43,624 bases of DNA from Erysipelotrichaceae bacterium (GTDB lineage Bacteria; Bacillota_I; Bacilli_A; Erysipelotrichales; Erysipelotrichaceae), in NCBI GenBank assembly GCA_030526485.1, contig JAUNCS010000013.1, positions 1 to 43,624 of the forward strand. The letters are read 5' to 3'. The notes under the pieces are model-generated. The model was not told where the DNA came from, ran no database searches, and worked only from the letters and a program-made list of their open reading frames with translations. Of the stretch, positions 6,957 to 43,431 are shown piece after piece (position 1 is the first letter of the stretch; every line of letters begins with the position of its first letter). The position numbers were made by a program, and so were the translations under genes.

Positions 6957-7043
6957 TGTGCTCCTTTCTTTGTATAGACTCGCCATTAAGGTGCTATGCT
7001 TAAAACCTTCTCTGTGCGGTTGAAACCCATATAGGGAGACAAC
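6957..7043 (-). ncRNA. L21 leader RNA (ribosomal protein autoregulatory leader)
   Basis: About 85 nt between the predicted transcription start and the rplU Shine-Dalgarno, rich in short G/C blocks (CCCCG, CTCCC, GGGTTT, ACCGCAC, AAGGT, GGCGAG) unlike the AT-rich surroundings. Position and composition match the L21 leader family described upstream of rplU in Firmicutes. A covariance-model search would confirm it. The exact fold was not computed. Confidence 0.7.
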
Positions 7044-36819: not shown

Positions 36820-38230
36820 AAAGCCTTCTTTCCAGTAACTTACTCTTGGAATTATTCTTATTTATTTCTAAGATATCGACATTTAATTCTCTGGCTAATA
36901 TTTCCATGACCTTAGGCATGCAGAAACCACCCTGACATCTACCCATACCTGCTCTTACTCTTCTTTTAATCGCATCTAAAGAAGTAGCTCTTAAAGGTCT
37001 GTTGATCACATCGACAATCTCGCCTTCGGATATTTCTTCACATCGACAGATGATATTGCCGTATAAAGGATTTTCCCTAATCAGCTTGGCTCTTTCATTT
37101 ATATCCATATCTGCTAAACGCTTAAAATCTTCACGTTTATTAGCATAATTATCATTTCTTGATGGCTTTAAATCATTTACTATCATTTCGCTAATCATTT
37201 CCGCTATCGCTGGCGCACTTGATAAACCCGGTGACTCAATGCCAATAGCTTCATAGTAATTATTATCTAAAGAACGAATGATAAAGTCCTTGTTTTGTGG
37301 TCTCGATCTAAGACCTGAGAAAGAAGTGATGACCTTATTCATTGGGATATTATCAACTGATAATTTGCCTTTTTGAATAATCATATTCAAGTCTTCCTTG
37401 GTAGTAGCTGTAAACTCCTTATCTTCAATATCGGTAGCACTAGGACCTACTAAAAGATTGCCATGGACTGTTGGCGTTACCAGGACACCCTTACCTAAGG
37501 CTGTAGGCAACTGAAATAAAGTATGAGATACAAGGTTACCTATTTCCTTATCAAAGAGACAATAGTCACCCTTTCTTGGTGTCAGCTTTAAGTCATCATT
37601 GAATAATAAATTATGTATTTTATCGCCATATAGTCCAGCTGCATTAACGATACATTTAGACTGATATTCATTATTGATTAAATAGTAATCATCTACTCTT
37701 TCAATAGTCTTAACTTCCGTATTCAGCTTAATTTCTGAGCCATTTAAGATGGCATTCTCGGCGAAGGCAATTGTCATATCAAATGGACAGACAATGGCAG
37801 CTGTAGGGGCGTATAAGGCCGCTACAACATCTTTTGACAGATGTGGCTCTAATTCCCTTGCCCTGTCGCCATCAATGATTTCCAGGTCTTTAACGCCATT
37901 ATTTACGCCACGTTCATAAAGTTCCTTTAAACCATCAATCTGTTCTTCATCAAAACAAAGAACCATTGAACCATTATTAAGATAAGAGAAATGCAAGTCT
38001 TCACTTAACTGTTTAATTAATTCCGCACCCCTGACATTCAGCTTAGCCTTTAAAGTACCATTCTTCGCATCAAAACCCGCATGAATAATGGCACTGTTAG
38101 CCTTGGAAGTACCGGAACAGACATCCTCTTCCTTTTCCAGCAAAAGGGTCTTCAACTGGTATTTAGAAAGTTCGTTTAAAATGGCGCAACCAGTTACACC
38201 ACCACCTATTATTATTACGTCGTACATCAT
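36806..38230 (-). CDS. GlpA-like glycerol-3-phosphate dehydrogenase with BFD-type [2Fe-2S] domain
   Basis: A 474-residue FAD protein: N-terminal YDVIIIGGGVTGCAIL dinucleotide fold, DAO-type catalytic domain (to about 370) and a C-terminal BFD-like domain with CRC...GRCQGGFC, a [2Fe-2S] cluster site. It probably oxidises sn-glycerol-3-phosphate to DHAP under anaerobic conditions. Start: I take the ATG at 38230 (MMYDVIII); no Shine-Dalgarno is present and a longer reading would run into the divergent cca gene. Overlaps the next gene by 14 bp. No glycerol kinase or facilitator is in the window. Confidence 0.88.
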   Translation of the reverse strand: MMYDVIIIGGGVTGCAILNELSKYQLKTLLLEKEEDVCSGTSKANSAIIHAGFDAKNGTLKAKLNVRGAELIKQLSEDLHFSYLNNGSMVLCFDEEQIDGLKELYERGVNNGVKDLEIIDGDRARELEPHLSKDVVAALYAPTAAIVCPFDMTIAFAENAILNGSEIKLNTEVKTIERVDDYYLINNEYQSKCIVNAAGLYGDKIHNLLFNDDLKLTPRKGDYCLFDKEIGNLVSHTLFQLPTALGKGVLVTPTVHGNLLVGPSATDIEDKEFTATTKEDLNMIIQKGKLSVDNIPMNKVITSFSGLRSRPQNKDFIIRSLDNNYYEAIGIESPGLSSAPAIAEMISEMIVNDLKPSRNDNYANKREDFKRLADMDINERAKLIRENPLYGNIICRCEEISEGEIVDVINRPLRATSLDAIKRRVRAGMGRCQGGFCMPKVMEILARELNVDILEINKNNSKSKLLERRLYEKV

Positions 38231-38239
38231 TAAGTTCAT

Positions 38240-38248
38240 TTTATAATA
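38240..38248. promoter_or_regulatory. Shared -10 region of cca (plus) and the glpA-like gene (minus)
   Basis: TATAAT on the plus strand (38242-38247) ends 8 nt before the cca ATG. The same bases read TATTAT/TATAAA on the minus strand, 9-12 nt before the glpA-like ATG. Neither gene has a Shine-Dalgarno, and the intergenic space is only 25 bp. The -35 elements are weak on both sides. Confidence 0.45.
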
Positions 38249-38255
38249 TTTAAAG

Positions 38256-39380
38256 ATGAATGAAATAGTTCCTGCAGTATATACTGCCCTAAAAATCTTT
38301 AAAGACAACGGAATGGAAGGCTATCTGGTTGGTGGCGCCGTCAGAAGCTATCTTTTAGGTACTGAAATAAAAGACTACGATATCACTACCAATGCCCCAC
38401 CTGTCACCACCAAAAGACTGTTTGCCAATTATCCCTTATATACCATTGGTGAAAAACATGGCACCGTGGTCGTAACTATTGATGGCGTTAAGATTGATAT
38501 CACTACTTATCGAAGTGATGTGGAATATATCGATCACCGTCATCCCAAGGAAGTAGTCTTCTCCGATAATTTATTGGAAGATTTAAAAAGAAGAGACTTT
38601 ACCATCAATGCCCTGTGTCTGAATATAGACAATAAGTTAATCGATGAATTTAATGGTCTTGAAGACCTAAATAATAAAATCATCAGAGCTATTGGTGACC
38701 CTAATACCCGATTCTATGAAGACGCCTTAAGAATACTAAGAGCCCTGCGCTTTTCTTCAAGACTGAACTTCACCATTGAAGAAAAAACCAAGGAAGCGAT
38801 GTTTAAGAATAAACATCTTTTAGAATATATTTCCAATGAAAGAAAAAAAGAAGAACTCTTATATATCCTGGCTACCAAGAACAGATATCAGACCATTAAT
38901 GAATACTTATCCATTTTCAATACCTTCATTCCTTTTAAAGAAACTGATAAAAAGATTGATGACTTCTCCAATGAATACTATGCCTTATCTTATCTTTTAA
39001 GCAGTTGTGAAAAAGTAAATCTTAAAGAACTGAAGTTTTCCAGAAATGAAATCTTCTTAATTGAAGCTTTAATTGAAGCTACAAATACCGACTTAAAAAA
39101 TGATTACAACTTCATTTCTCTTTTAAGTGATCCTTTAGCCAAAGATATTCTTACTTATTTAGAGGAACTATATGACATTGATTACCATAAGCGTTATAAG
39201 CTTTTAAGTGAATATATTATCACTATCGATGACTTGACCATCAGTGGTAATGACCTGATAAATATGGGCTACAGTGGCAAACATATTGGGGAAATCAAGA
39301 AAGAACTATTGGAAAAGATACATCGAAAAGAGCTTAGAAACGACCATAGCAGCCTTCTTAAGTATCTGGAAACAAAATGA
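38256..39380 (+). CDS. cca: CCA tRNA nucleotidyltransferase
   Basis: A 374-residue class II enzyme that adds or repairs the 3-prime CCA end of tRNAs. GGAVRSYLLG and KDYDITTNAPP (metal Asp pair) near the N-terminus, RRDFTINALCLN, and an RILRALRFSSRL neck motif are visible; the C-terminal region is helical and less conserved. Length is in the usual 370-400 range. The start has TATAAT 8 nt before it and no Shine-Dalgarno. It is directly followed by two tRNA-dependent FemX-like ligases and a tRNA gene. Confidence 0.95.
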   Translation: MNEIVPAVYTALKIFKDNGMEGYLVGGAVRSYLLGTEIKDYDITTNAPPVTTKRLFANYPLYTIGEKHGTVVVTIDGVKIDITTYRSDVEYIDHRHPKEVVFSDNLLEDLKRRDFTINALCLNIDNKLIDEFNGLEDLNNKIIRAIGDPNTRFYEDALRILRALRFSSRLNFTIEEKTKEAMFKNKHLLEYISNERKKEELLYILATKNRYQTINEYLSIFNTFIPFKETDKKIDDFSNEYYALSYLLSSCEKVNLKELKFSRNEIFLIEALIEATNTDLKNDYNFISLLSDPLAKDILTYLEELYDIDYHKRYKLLSEYIITIDDLTISGNDLINMGYSGKHIGEIKKELLEKIHRKELRNDHSSLLKYLETK

Positions 39381-39386
39381 TATAAT
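39381..39386 (+). promoter_or_regulatory. -10 box (TATAAT) of femX1, leaderless-type spacing
   Basis: TATAAT begins right after the cca stop and ends 7 nt before the ATG at 39394; a weak -35 TTAAGT sits exactly 17 nt upstream. No Shine-Dalgarno. Confidence 0.5.
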
Positions 39387-39393
39387 CTTACAG

Positions 39394-40659
39394 ATGGAAC
39401 TTAGAAATATTAGTGATAAAGTAATGGATGACTTTGTCGAAACAAGCGACAAGTCACATTTTATGCAGACCAGTGCCTGGGGTGATGTCTCTAAAAATAG
39501 AGGCTACATCATTCATCAGCTTGGTTTATACAACAATGAACAACTATTAGGAACAGCCCTTCTTTTAGAAAAGAAGGTTTTAATGTATTCAACATTCTAT
39601 TGTCCAAGAGGCTTCATTCTGGACTTTAAAAATAAAGAACTGATTAAAGAAATGCTTAAACAGCTAAAAGACTACTGTTATAAACATAATGGTCTTTATT
39701 TAAAAATTAATCCAGATCTGATCATTGCCAAGCTGGATGATGAATGTAATCGTAAAGAAACAGATGAAGGCAACTTTGAACTGATTGAATTCTTTAAGGA
39801 AAATGGTGGCAGCTTTAGAGGCTTTACTACTACTTTCTCCGAATCAAGTGCTCCACGCTTTACCTTTAGAGTAAATGTTGAAAGAAGCGAAGAAGAAATC
39901 TTTAATGGTTTACATAACACTACCAGAAAGATTCTAAAAGACAAGAATCCTTATAAAGTAAGCATTACCAAGAATGATCCTAATGCCCTGGAAGACTTCT
40001 ATCAGGTCATGAAAGAAACTTCTATTCGAAAGAAGATGTATATTGAACCATATACTTACTTTGAAAACTTCTATAAGGAACTGGCCAATAAAGATGAAGC
40101 TGATATCTATGTAGCTTCAATCAATACCAATGAGTTAAAAGAAATCTTCAATAATAAACTGGCTAATGTCGATAAAGAAATTGAAGATGTAAATAAAAGA
40201 CCTGATGGCCCTAAAAAAGAAAACAAACTAAAAGATCTTGATCAGAAAAGAAACAAGGTCTTAAAACTTAAAAAAGAAGTTGATGAATTAAAGAAAGAAA
40301 GAATTGTTCTTTCATCAATTATTACTGCCAGGTTTGGTGATAAGGTCTGGACTATTCATGGTGGCAATTCTGATGAACTATTATTCTTAAATGCCAACTA
40401 TGAACTTTACTACCACATCTTATTAGATTCAAAAGCCAATGGCTATAAGCTGGTAGACTTCTATGGGTCTGAAGGTAAGGTTGATAAGTCTTCCCAGATT
40501 TATGGCATCTATTTATTCAAGCTGAGATTTGGTGGTGACTTCGATGAATTCATTGGCGAATTTGACTTTATCTATCGCCCATTCATGAATTCTTTAATTA
40601 CTACTTTATTAAAGAGCAGAAGAAAGATTAAATATCTATTATCCGTTAAAAGAAAATGA
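39394..40659 (+). CDS. FemA/B/X-type peptidoglycan bridge aminoacyltransferase 1
   Basis: A 421-residue GNAT-pair protein of the FemABX family. It transfers an amino acid from aminoacyl-tRNA to the side chain of the lipid II stem peptide. Markers are QTSAWGDVSKNRGY at the start, YCPRGF, TTRKILKDKNPY, and DFYGSEGKVDKSSQIYGIYLFKLRFGG near the end. A coiled-coil arm (about 275-320, Lys/Glu/Leu-rich) is inserted, as in FemA and MurM. I start at the ATG at 39394; an earlier reading overlaps cca by more than 100 bp without homology. Overlaps femX2 by 4 bp. Confidence 0.9.
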   Translation: MELRNISDKVMDDFVETSDKSHFMQTSAWGDVSKNRGYIIHQLGLYNNEQLLGTALLLEKKVLMYSTFYCPRGFILDFKNKELIKEMLKQLKDYCYKHNGLYLKINPDLIIAKLDDECNRKETDEGNFELIEFFKENGGSFRGFTTTFSESSAPRFTFRVNVERSEEEIFNGLHNTTRKILKDKNPYKVSITKNDPNALEDFYQVMKETSIRKKMYIEPYTYFENFYKELANKDEADIYVASINTNELKEIFNNKLANVDKEIEDVNKRPDGPKKENKLKDLDQKRNKVLKLKKEVDELKKERIVLSSIITARFGDKVWTIHGGNSDELLFLNANYELYYHILLDSKANGYKLVDFYGSEGKVDKSSQIYGIYLFKLRFGGDFDEFIGEFDFIYRPFMNSLITTLLKSRRKIKYLLSVKRK

Positions 40660-41906
40660 TTATTGAAATAAGTAAAGAAGAATTTGATTTTGAAGCCAAG
40701 CTGTTCCCAGACTTAACTTTCTATCAGAGTTCTAACTGGGCCGCTTTAAAATCATACACTGGCTGGAAAGCCCTGTATTTAAAATATCTTGAAAATAACA
40801 GTGTTGAAGGACTGGGCCTTTTCTTATTGAAGAAAATGCCTTTATTAAATGCCTATCTGGCCTATAGTCCTAGAGGCTATTTAATTAACTACGCTGATAT
40901 TGAACAGTTAAAAAACTTCAACAATGAATTATTACCATTCTTAAAAAAGAAAAAAGTCTTCCAGTTAATTATTGATCCCTATGTCTTATTACATGATAGA
41001 GACATCAATGGTGATATTAGAGAAGACTCTTTCGATAATACCTATATTGTCGAAACACTAAAAGAGATTGGTTATCGTCATAATGGCTATAACCTTTACT
41101 ACGAAAATCTGCAGCCCAGATGGCTGTTTAGATTAAATATCAAAGACAAGTCTTTTGAAGAACTGACTAAGGACTTTAAGAAAGAAGCTAAAAGAAGAGC
41201 TTCCAAGAAAGACTTATTCGCTATTAATGTAAGAGAACTAAATAAGGATGAAGTACCGGTCTTTAAGAACCTGATGAATATGACCAGTGTCCGCAAAGGC
41301 TTTATTGATAGACCCCTGGGTTACTATCAGCAGATGTATGATACCTTAGGTAATGGTATCTTACGCTATATGGTAGCGGAAATTGATACCGATAAGTGTA
41401 GAGAAAATATTGAAACGGAAATTGCCAAGGAAGAAGCTAAGCTGGCTAAGCTTGAACTTCATAAAGAACGCAATGAAGGCAAGATTAAGGAAGAACTGGT
41501 TACTATCAATTCTTTAAAGAAAATTGTTGATAAGGTCAATGAATGCCAGAAAGAAAGAGGCAAGATAGTTCCGCTATCGGTAGTATGTCTTTTAACCTAT
41601 GGCAAGGAAGCCATAATGTTGCTGGCGGGAAATGATGAAGACTACCTGCAGCAGTTTAATACTTCCAATATCATCGTCTCTGAACTAATTAAGCTGTGTA
41701 AGGAAGAAGGTTATTCGTATTACAACTTCTATGGCATCACTGGTAACTTTGATCCAAAGAATGAGCACTATGGCTTATACACTTACAAGAAGCAGTATGG
41801 TGGTGAAGTAGTAGAACTGATTGGTCAGTTTGAATATACAGTAAACAGTTTTGTTAAGTCACTGTACGATAAGATGTTAAAGGTCTACAAACTCACTAAG
41901 AGGTAG
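40656..41906 (+). CDS. FemA/B/X-type peptidoglycan bridge aminoacyltransferase 2
   Basis: A 416-residue paralog of the preceding gene with the same plan: QSSNWAALKSYTGWKALYL, AYSPRGYLINY, a Lys-rich central helix pair, a coiled-coil insert (about 245-300) and YYNFYGITGNFDPKNEHYGLY with KKQYGGEVVELIG near the end. Two tandem Fem proteins usually mean a bridge of at least two residues added in order. The identity of the amino acids cannot be read from sequence. ATGA overlap with gene 1 and no own Shine-Dalgarno, so translation is coupled. A tRNA-Thr gene begins 6 bp after its stop. Confidence 0.9.
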   Translation: MIIEISKEEFDFEAKLFPDLTFYQSSNWAALKSYTGWKALYLKYLENNSVEGLGLFLLKKMPLLNAYLAYSPRGYLINYADIEQLKNFNNELLPFLKKKKVFQLIIDPYVLLHDRDINGDIREDSFDNTYIVETLKEIGYRHNGYNLYYENLQPRWLFRLNIKDKSFEELTKDFKKEAKRRASKKDLFAINVRELNKDEVPVFKNLMNMTSVRKGFIDRPLGYYQQMYDTLGNGILRYMVAEIDTDKCRENIETEIAKEEAKLAKLELHKERNEGKIKEELVTINSLKKIVDKVNECQKERGKIVPLSVVCLLTYGKEAIMLLAGNDEDYLQQFNTSNIIVSELIKLCKEEGYSYYNFYGITGNFDPKNEHYGLYTYKKQYGGEVVELIGQFEYTVNSFVKSLYDKMLKVYKLTKR

Positions 41907-41912
41907 ATTATA

Positions 41913-41987
41913 GCCGATATAGCACAGGGGTAGTGCAACGCCTTCGTAACGCGTAGGTCGGGGGTTCAAATCCCTCTATCGGCACCA
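41913..41987 (+). tRNA. tRNA-Thr(CGT)
   Basis: Complete cloverleaf with encoded CCA: acceptor GCCGATA / TATCGGC, D-arm GCAC / GTGC with AGGGGTA loop, anticodon loop TTCGTAA (anticodon CGT at 41945-41947, reading ACG), 5-nt variable loop, T-arm GGGGG / CCCTC with loop TTCAAAT, discriminator A. One oddity is a C-C mismatch at the last anticodon-stem pair (positions 31-39, bases 41942 and 41950). It begins 6 bp after femX2 and has its own terminator. Confidence 0.93.
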
Positions 41988-41998
41988 TTTAACGAATT

Positions 41999-42026
41999 AG
42001 AATCTCATAATGAGATTCTTTTTTTA
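41999..42026 (+). terminator. Terminator of the femX-tRNA-Thr unit
   Basis: 10-bp dyad AGAATCTCAT / ATGAGATTCT with a 1-nt centre, followed by T7. It ends both the tRNA and any readthrough from cca-femX. Confidence 0.9.
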
Positions 42027-42033
42027 TAAAGAA

Positions 42034-42058
42034 AAGAGACTATTTCATATAGTCTCTT
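42034..42058 (-). terminator. Terminator of the aldehyde dehydrogenase gene
   Basis: 10-bp stem AAGAGACTAT / ATAGTCTCTT with a 5-nt loop, followed on the minus strand by TTCTTTAT. It starts within the stop codon of the gene. Confidence 0.75.
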
Positions 42059-43431
42059 TAGCTTAAGAATATTCTTAATAATTTCTTATATAAACCATTG
42101 GTATATGGCTGATAACGCATTGGTAAATCCAGCCAGCACTTCTTATCTACTATTGATTTCTTATGTGAGAAGGCTTCAAAACCAAACTTGCCATGGTATG
42201 TCCCCATACCACTTTCGCCTACTCCTCCAAAGCCCATTTCTGAAGTAGCCAGGTGAATTATCACATCATTGATGCATCCTCCACCATAGCTTAATTCTTT
42301 CATTACTCTATTAATATGTTTCTTATCCTTAGAGAAGATGTATAAAGCTAAAGGCTTAGGTTTATCCTTTAATTCAGCAACTACAGTATCAAAATCCTCA
42401 TAAGTCATTATTGGCAGTAATGGCCCAAAGATTTCTTCTTTCATGATTAGATCATCCTCGGTAATATCGCTTAAGATTGTTGGTTCTATCTGGTTTGTTT
42501 CAATATTGAAATTACCACCATAAGTAAGTTTATCCTTATTGATTAAACCGATTAAGCGATTAAAATGCTTACTGTTAATAATCTTTCCATAATCCTTATT
42601 GTTTAATGGACTATCACCAAACTGCTTCTTAATTTCTTTAATAAGCTCTTTTGTAAATTCACTTACTACTTCCTTATCACAAAGAATATAATCAGGAGCT
42701 ACACAGGTCTGATCGCAGTTTAAGAATTTACCAAAGACAATTCTTTTAGCTGATAGTTTTAAATCCGCACTTCTATCAACAATACAAGGACTCTTGCCAC
42801 CAAGTTCCAATACGACTGGTGTTAAATTATCAGCAGACTTTCTTAAGACTTCCTTACCAACATTCTGACCACCAGTAAAGAAGATAAAGTCAAATTTCTG
42901 ATCAAGCAGTTCTTTATTTTCTTCTCTGCCTCCTCTTACAACCGCAACATATTCTTCACTAAATACTTCTTTTATAATCTTTTCAATTACAAGCGATGTA
43001 TTACCCGAATAAGCACTTGGTTTTAGTATTGCGGTATTACCAGCAGCTATCGCATCCACTAATGGTTCCATTGTCAGCATGAATGGATAGTTCCAGGGAC
43101 TCATGATTAATGTATTTCCATAAGGAACAGTTTCAATAAAACTGTTAGAAGCAAACTGAGCAAGAGGAGTATAAACGCTCTTTCTTTTAGAAAATCGGCG
43201 TACATGCTTAAGCATATAAGAGATTTCGGTATAAACCATACCTACTTCGCACATAAAGCCCTCAGTTTCGCTTTTTCCTAAATCTTTGTATAAAGCCTCA
43301 TATATTTCTTTTTCATTGTCCTGAATGGCTTTATATAGCTTTCTTAGGTGACTGATACGATAATCAACATCCAAAGTAGCACCACTTTTAAAGAAAGCTC
43401 TCTGCTTAGCCAGTAATTCCTTAATTTCCAT
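42058..43431 (-). CDS. NAD(P)-dependent aldehyde dehydrogenase (class 3-like)
   Basis: A 457-residue ALDH of the short class 3 type. The N-terminal helices are followed by MSPWNYPFMLTMEPLVDAIAAGN, the cofactor motif FTGG, the general-base Glu in VLELGGKSP and the catalytic Cys in CDQTCVAPDY. The C-terminus (LLRIFLS) is hydrophobic, as in fatty-aldehyde dehydrogenases that sit on membranes. I use the ATG at 43431 with GGAG 5 nt upstream; a GTG two codons earlier is possible. It oxidises medium or long-chain aldehydes by family; the natural substrate is unknown. Confidence 0.92.
   Translation of the reverse strand: MEIKELLAKQRAFFKSGATLDVDYRISHLRKLYKAIQDNEKEIYEALYKDLGKSETEGFMCEVGMVYTEISYMLKHVRRFSKRKSVYTPLAQFASNSFIETVPYGNTLIMSPWNYPFMLTMEPLVDAIAAGNTAILKPSAYSGNTSLVIEKIIKEVFSEEYVAVVRGGREENKELLDQKFDFIFFTGGQNVGKEVLRKSADNLTPVVLELGGKSPCIVDRSADLKLSAKRIVFGKFLNCDQTCVAPDYILCDKEVVSEFTKELIKEIKKQFGDSPLNNKDYGKIINSKHFNRLIGLINKDKLTYGGNFNIETNQIEPTILSDITEDDLIMKEEIFGPLLPIMTYEDFDTVVAELKDKPKPLALYIFSKDKKHINRVMKELSYGGGCINDVIIHLATSEMGFGGVGESGMGTYHGKFGFEAFSHKKSIVDKKCWLDLPMRYQPYTNGLYKKLLRIFLS

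Follow-up and report, generated by a model that had tools for sequence, protein, structure and literature searches.

Co-transcripts of protein genes with transfer RNA (tRNA) genes, ligases of the FemAB family and the partition of tRNAs in staphylococci are all known already. The secG-leuU transcripts of Escherichia coli, reportedly the subject of work by Mohanty and Kushner in 2008, are said to be co-transcripts of messenger RNA (mRNA) and tRNA; the murMN genes of Streptococcus pneumoniae reportedly form an operon of tandem genes; and, to our knowledge, the staphylococcal wall tRNA genes do not lie in fem operons. The FemXAB ligases of Staphylococcus aureus work with wall-directed tRNA-Gly isoacceptors, and these wall tRNAs have lost G18G19-type and strong T-stem features, as described in part of PMC4052509; the same part gives S. 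pneumoniae MurM and MurN as two FemAB-type ligases acting in turn, with Ser and Ala as donors. Here we describe an array from a gut bacterium of the Erysipelotrichaceae in which cca, femX1, femX2 and tRNA-Thr(CGT) all lie on the + strand, with successive gaps of 13, -4 and 6 nt, and are followed by one terminator. The stretch analyzed, called the window below, is one entire contig of 43,624 nucleotides (JAUNCS010000013.1) from a genome of 1.95 Mb that is 97.8% complete (G000).

The array resembles secG-leuU in that the tRNA lies downstream of a protein gene, with an intrinsic terminator close by and release by RNase P expected. It differs in that the genes ahead of the tRNA themselves work on tRNA (cca and the Fem ligases), in that the gap to the tRNA was ≤10 nt in 23 of the 34 linked loci (those where the tRNA trails a fem-type or cca gene), and in that the order is conserved across genera and is known from sequence alone. 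FemAB-family ligases, and the idea of tRNAs feeding bridges, are shared with S. aureus FemXAB; in contrast to the wall tRNAs, in which G18G19 is replaced and the pairs 49-65 and 51-63 are weak for EF-Tu, the window tRNA-Thr keeps G18G19 (the GG of the D loop) and a strong T stem with G49-C65 and G51-C63. It is also the sole CGT copy found, beside two TGT and one GGT threonine tRNAs; an extra isoacceptor copy next to a proteinogenic one would be a mark of the wall type. Two FemAB-type ligases encoded in tandem are likewise found in MurM/MurN, for which the relevant part of PMC4052509 makes no mention of a tRNA gene or of cca. The Lys-Thr-Ala (A3alpha) peptidoglycan of lactococci shows that bridges in Bacillota can contain threonine, and the part of PMC12281737 dealing with it describes no link to a tRNA gene. 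FemA and FemB are placed among the wall proteins of Bulleidia, with no tRNA link in that portion of PMC12786226, and the peptidoglycan type is given in part of PMC4062643 as na for Solobacterium moorei and as B1delta for Holdemania filiformis and Erysipelothrix.

Neither a fem-tRNA gene cluster nor a conserved cca-fem-tRNA unit was reported in the open-access literature searched. The explanation we favor, with a probability of about 0.6, is that a promoterless minor threonine tRNA forms the tail of a cca-fem operon and would be freed from its mRNA, its linkage to the ligase genes reflecting dependence on the operon promoter and not the supply of a substrate.

Conservation of the cca-fem-tRNA order

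The femX2 protein was searched in 101 relatives and FemAB in 145 family genomes (among the matches listed), and sequence patterns for tRNA-Thr(CGT) were run on the 145 family genomes and on 36 genomes of the genus of the window (g1); around each site, the flanking sequence was searched for tRNAs by ARAGORN and for fem genes by FemAB and short-FemX profiles derived from the loci at hand. The relatives matching femX2 were labelled as Erysipelotrichaceae bacterium, Solobacterium sp., Bacillota/Firmicutes and Bacilli bacterium, several of them from goat, sheep or cattle gut. The tRNA pattern was found in at least 91 of the 145 family genomes (96 sites), a lower bound, as the first pattern demands GGTTCRA, the second demands T at position 32, and the copy of G008 was missed by both.

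Within the genus, 30 of the 36 genomes carried tRNA-Thr(CGT) (29 by the first pattern, plus G008), and in 29 of these the tRNA trailed a same-strand gene, either fem-type or cca, with inserted genes in two and contig breaks in three; in the 30th (G026) the tRNA begins a contig. The gene preceding the tRNA was a short FemX in 18 genomes (two across contig breaks), a full femX2 directly in four, a femX2 followed by inserted genes in two (G002 and G008), a gene of the femX1 clade in one (G018) and cca alone in four, which together with one g64 genome gives five cca-tRNA genomes. Contigs were joined through a 141-nt shared end in G012 and through a 16-nt shared end only in G016. Two antisense open reading frames (ORFs) lie in the 1385 nt between femX2 and the same-strand tRNA of G008, where the contig ends overlap by 135 nt. 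In G002 (L189) an antisense ORF, PIN-like by eye, separates femX2 from a tRNA-Thr(CGT) that has a promoter-like element.

Outside the genus, femX1-femX2-tRNA was present in all of the g18 (4/4) and g75 (2/2) genomes, and the g64 genomes showed cca-femX1-femX2-tRNA (2/5), cca-tRNA (1/5) or neither gene within about 4 kb of the tRNA (2/5). When the 16 full-length femX2 genes were followed downstream, the tRNA was next in 12 and behind inserts in two. The flanking genes vary among the loci while fem and tRNA stay paired, and since the order is kept in relatives as the neighbors change, it is beyond what chance would be expected to maintain. The complete four-gene order occurs in two genera, g1 (the window and G025) and g64 (G119 and G157), which suggests that a cca-fem-tRNA order was ancestral and that fem or cca was later lost or moved, the tRNA staying with the remaining upstream gene.

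In the tree, FemX1 formed a single clade across g1, g18, g75 and g64 (support 100/100), and FemX2 of g1, g18 and g75 a separate clade (100/98), with the g64 femX2 beside the midpoint root; by this tree the femX1/femX2 pair is old. A phage origin was considered and rejected: 5501 bases of the region had no match in a phage collection (megablast only), and femX1 and femX2 of g18, g75 and g64 cluster by genus.

The short FemX has an open frame of about 300-400 aa (L190, L191, L192, L031, L181, L184, L216 and L217-L227) and is nested in the femX2 clade, on a long branch that leaves its exact placement unsure. None of the 18 short copies retained any of the motifs QPR, FYG..G and K..[YFW]G, whereas all 16 full femX2 proteins retained the three, and the short form is probably not a normal ligase. 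Its dN/dS ratio of 0.05-0.17 (nine pairs more than 60% identical, several with dS above 1) suggests that it is kept as a protein under purifying selection. In the loci measured, -1 to +1 nt separate its stop codon from tRNA-Thr(CGT), which would place the RNase P cut at the stop codon itself.

Transcription signals around the tRNA

Many stand-alone copies of tRNA-Thr(CGT) carried a sigma-70-like element with its -10 box about 8-13 nt before the tRNA. With the -10 box confined to 5-20 nt upstream of the tRNA and a threshold score of ≥7, such an element was detected in 49/74 unlinked copies, in 7/11 linked copies with a gap above 10 nt and in 1-3% of control stretches, but in only 1/23 copies abutting the upstream gene (abutting versus unlinked, p = 1.4e-8); the window copy scored 1.4. 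Plain consensus counts, after removal of near-identical upstream sequences, gave 1/17 abutting versus 41/65 unlinked copies (p = 1e-6). L116 and L212 were excluded from these counts because their upstream sequence was too short, and the unlinked set still held L215 (the second copy of L140) and L213, which is truly linked across a contig break and whose inclusion works against our explanation. When the search was extended to about 66 nt, a score of 8 was reached by 12 of the 29 fem-linked copies, three of them abutting short-FemX loci whose match sits 63 nt before the tRNA; these matches lie within the gene and were given less weight.

Of the 29 fem-linked loci in which the spacing was measured, 17 had -1 to +2 nt between stop codon and tRNA, and an upstream ORF was found within 10 nt for 2/80 unlinked copies. 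A perfect-stem terminator was located no more than 40 nt from the tRNA in 20/23 abutting, 7/10 gapped and 55/77 unlinked copies. In the window the tRNA lies downstream of an ORF, has no promoter-like element of its own and shares one terminator with the genes before it, which at the level of sequence is the make-up of an mRNA-tRNA co-transcript. The array is a probable single transcription unit to which production of the tRNA is likely tied, and in this respect the initial annotation, which had found a tRNA supply tied to wall synthesis conceivable, is supported.

We propose that in an ancestor common to several Erysipelotrichaceae genera a minor threonine tRNA came to the 3' end of a cca-fem unit, and that its own promoter was lost both here and in those relatives whose tRNA abuts the last ORF. 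The tRNA would then be made solely by read-through of the cca/fem mRNA to the shared terminator and be released by RNase P at its 5' end and by trimming at its 3' end, while FemX1 and FemX2 would add amino acids from charged tRNAs to the wall precursor. Being dependent on the operon promoter, the tRNA would, with each gene loss, remain downstream of whatever was left, be it fem, eroded fem or cca.

Genes, tRNA and coordinates of the array

The features of the array are listed in the table. ORF, tRNA and terminator scans agreed with the initial annotation, which had described cca, femX1, femX2 and tRNA-Thr as lying in one direction with tight gaps and one terminator.

Table. Features of the cca-fem-tRNA array in the window
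Feature	Positions	Strand	Evidence
cca, CCA-adding tRNA nucleotidyltransferase, first gene of the array	38256-39380	+	PF01743, PF12627, PF13735
femX1, FemAB-family aminoacyl-tRNA-dependent ligase, 421 aa	39394-40659	+	PF02388; 6snr, 1lrz; own clade over four genera
femX2, FemAB-family ligase, 416 aa	40656-41906	+	PF02388; 6snr, 1lrz; orthologues; three hallmark motifs
6-nt spacer from femX2 stop to tRNA, lacking a promoter-like element where stand-alone copies carry one	41907-41912	+	
tRNA-Thr(CGT), 75 nt, CCA encoded	41913-41987	+	ARAGORN; Rfam RF00005, 65.8 bits
Intrinsic terminator common to the array	41999-42026 (hairpin 41999-42019 + T run)	+	Terminator scan; fold z = -3.5

All three cca domains were above their cut-offs (PF01743, the PolyA_pol head, at 3.4e-35; PF12627, RNA-binding; PF13735, tRNA_NucTran2_2), so that the protein has the class II nucleotidyltransferase head and the RNA-binding domains of a CCA-adding enzyme, and it scored 276.6 bits against the equivalog NF009814, below the cut-off of 290. 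Both ligases were far above the cut-off of PF02388, covering positions 1-404 and 1-397 of its 406, with E values of 3.4e-71 for femX1 and 6.8e-83 for femX2. Matches to the Protein Data Bank entries 6snr and 1lrz, which we take to be S. aureus enzymes, spanned nearly the entire length of femX1 (1e-37 and 1.3e-22) and of femX2 (6.9e-37 and 3e-35), also when a profile of femX2 orthologues was used. The window femX2 retains QPR, FYG..G and K..YGG, and femX1 shows FYGSEG and FKLRFGG, the hallmark motifs having been chosen by us from alignments of FemAB proteins. The full-length domain, the solved-structure matches and the motifs bear out the FemX-type identity given in the initial annotation, and both proteins would function as FemAB-type ligases. 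A FemAB search of the whole genome found no further FemAB gene. A second, wall-specific threonyl-tRNA synthetase was looked for and set aside, as the thrS profile gave a single match above the cut-off in the genome, with seven partial matches below it.

The start of femX1 was set at the ATG at 39394, the listed ORF start at 39274 being a GTG within cca, and the 4-nt overlap between femX1 and femX2 is ATGA. The terminator hairpin falls just beyond position 41987, where the initial annotation had ended the region. As the scan found four terminator-like sites in 37900-42150 and 2.4 were expected, the terminator call depends on position as much as on score. A glycerol-3-phosphate-oxidase-like gene oriented away from the array lies upstream of it, and an aldehyde dehydrogenase gene oriented toward it lies downstream. 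Elsewhere in the window, an L21 ribosomal protein leader (Rfam RF00559) was detected at 6966-7031 on the - strand.

Rfam detected 39 tRNAs in the genome, all of which were typed, and those listed among them all encode CCA. The window tRNA has a C31-C39 mismatch in the anticodon stem, the combination in the majority of copies of its type being A31-C39, and its minimum-energy fold lacks a normal anticodon stem; ARAGORN and Rfam nevertheless accept the gene. Its sequence was identical to none of the other CGT copies compared, and linked copies of relatives can equal stand-alone ones elsewhere in the family (e.g. L181 = L108). Of the 82 rows given as unlinked in this structural comparison, two (L197 and L201) are second copies of linked loci, and L116, L212, L213 and L215 also stand among them. 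With its G18G19 and strong T stem, and with such identities among relatives, the window tRNA looks like an ordinary, minor threonine tRNA. The ACG codon accounts for 22/602 threonine codons in 35 window ORFs (26/608 with looser ORFs), and the pooled ACG share in the abutting genomes is 17%, so that ACG rarity is a trait of the window genome and not of the group. Since ACG is rare in the window and the Thr-TGT tRNAs should, by the wobble rule, read ACG too, a low and coupled expression of tRNA-Thr(CGT) would be tolerable here. Two further tRNA sites of the same genome were recorded: on contig C34 (L058) a tRNA-Thr(TGT) and a tRNA-Met lie about 208 nt apart and differ in sequence from the genome's main copies, perhaps being carried on a mobile element; and on contig C48 a match to the tetrahydrofolate (THF) riboswitch (L346, 56-145; 63.5 bits) adjoins tRNA-Leu(TAG).

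Explanations of the linkage

The initial annotation had also conceived of a bridge containing threonine. Read in this way, FemX1 or FemX2 would put threonine into the interpeptide bridge and tRNA-Thr(CGT) would be the donor source, as is the wall tRNA-Gly of staphylococci, which is favored by the tight tRNA-ligase linkage kept in four genera, by the rarity in the window of the codon it reads, which could leave the tRNA to be spared, and by the lactococcal bridges. A same-anticodon tRNA-Thr elsewhere in the genome, which together with a Thr-free bridge would refute the idea according to that annotation, was looked for and was absent among the 39 typed tRNAs. However, no support for a special link to threonine came from the sequence: the window tRNA lacks the G18G19 replacement and the weak T-stem pairs of the S. 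aureus wall tRNAs, some linked tRNAs of relatives have the very sequence of stand-alone copies, and the linkage survives with cca alone (five genomes) and with the motif-less short FemX (18 genomes of the genus). Elsewhere, FemAB genes have tRNAs for Leu(GAG), Glu(CTC), Arg(TCT) and Val(CAC) nearby, with no amino-acid theme, the genome has the single thrS match above the cut-off, and the window tRNA carries C2-G71, a pair disfavored by Weissella FemX according to part of PMC4052509. We regard a dedicated threonine supply as unlikely. A bolder form, in which FemX2 (or FemX1) would add bridge threonine drawn from the tRNA of the same transcript and the eroded FemX of relatives would still bind and handle tRNA without ligase activity, appears very doubtful; if it were true, ligase mRNA and donor tRNA would be produced one-for-one.

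Two further explanations do without threonine as a donor. The Fem ligases could drain charged tRNAs, with tRNA and CCA-repair genes co-expressed as a general compensation; the window unit does unite cca, tRNA and ligases, and the cca-fem-tRNA order occurs in two genera, but of the 29 fem-linked loci just 8, counting the window, have cca ahead of fem, a minor threonine isoacceptor would make a poor general buffer, and cca would be limited to repair, as the listed tRNAs all encode CCA. This load balancing we hold to be highly unlikely. It is improbable, too, that the tRNA is a neutral neighbor, transcribed from some promoter within femX2 that escaped the scan, its order being kept by descent alone. 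Some linked copies with longer gaps bear their own promoter-like element, and a tRNA was present at 7/84 FemAB control loci outside the linked genera (two of the seven being the same place); yet the pair stayed while the flanking genes changed, the spacing is -1 to +2 nt in 17 of the 29 fem-linked loci against 2/80 unlinked copies within 10 nt of an upstream ORF, and at the abutting sites no promoter was found above the control level.

The control set comprised 87 loci with 111 FemAB ORFs, some of the loci overlapping. The idea that FemAB genes are as a rule accompanied by the tRNA of their own amino acid was rejected, as only 10/87 loci had a tRNA, three of them in linked genera; the other seven had Val (one place, twice), Arg, Glu, Leu (two g2 genomes) and a convergent Thr. 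In another genus of the family (L283 in G036 and L295 in G164), tRNA-Leu(GAG) lies 42-43 nt downstream of a FemAB gene on the same strand, and immediately before the three consecutive FemAB genes of L310 (G049) lies a tRNA-Val(CAC) in divergent orientation. In three species of g59 (L150, L151 and L152), a FemAB gene is convergent with tRNA-Thr(CGT), about 60-122 nt apart; this pair was treated separately, the gene belonging to another FemAB subfamily in the tree and the tRNA having a promoter-like element.

Several observations weigh against the explanation we favor. In g18, copies that have both a gap and a good promoter also stayed in place, which promoter dependence leaves unexplained; the tRNA stands alone in two of the five g64 genomes; no tRNA was found downstream of the full femX2 in G020 (57% complete) and L198; and, given how seldom cca precedes fem in the stretches fetched, the four-gene order is not common. 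Use of ACG in the abutting genomes was slightly below the prediction from GC content at third codon positions (GC3) at a just borderline level (p = 0.051). The promoter scan covers one promoter type, with weights chosen by us, and the genomes of the genus are related, so that the 23 abutting copies represent far fewer independent events and the p-values are uncorrected except for the removal of near-identical upstream sequences.

The sharing of charged tRNAs between translation and wall synthesis is called unclear in most instances in part of PMC4052509. A tRNA at the tail of a Fem-ligase mRNA would offer a natural case in which the supplies of translation and of the wall could be changed together or apart, and the repeated states within one genus (full fem, eroded fem and cca only) would allow direct comparison.

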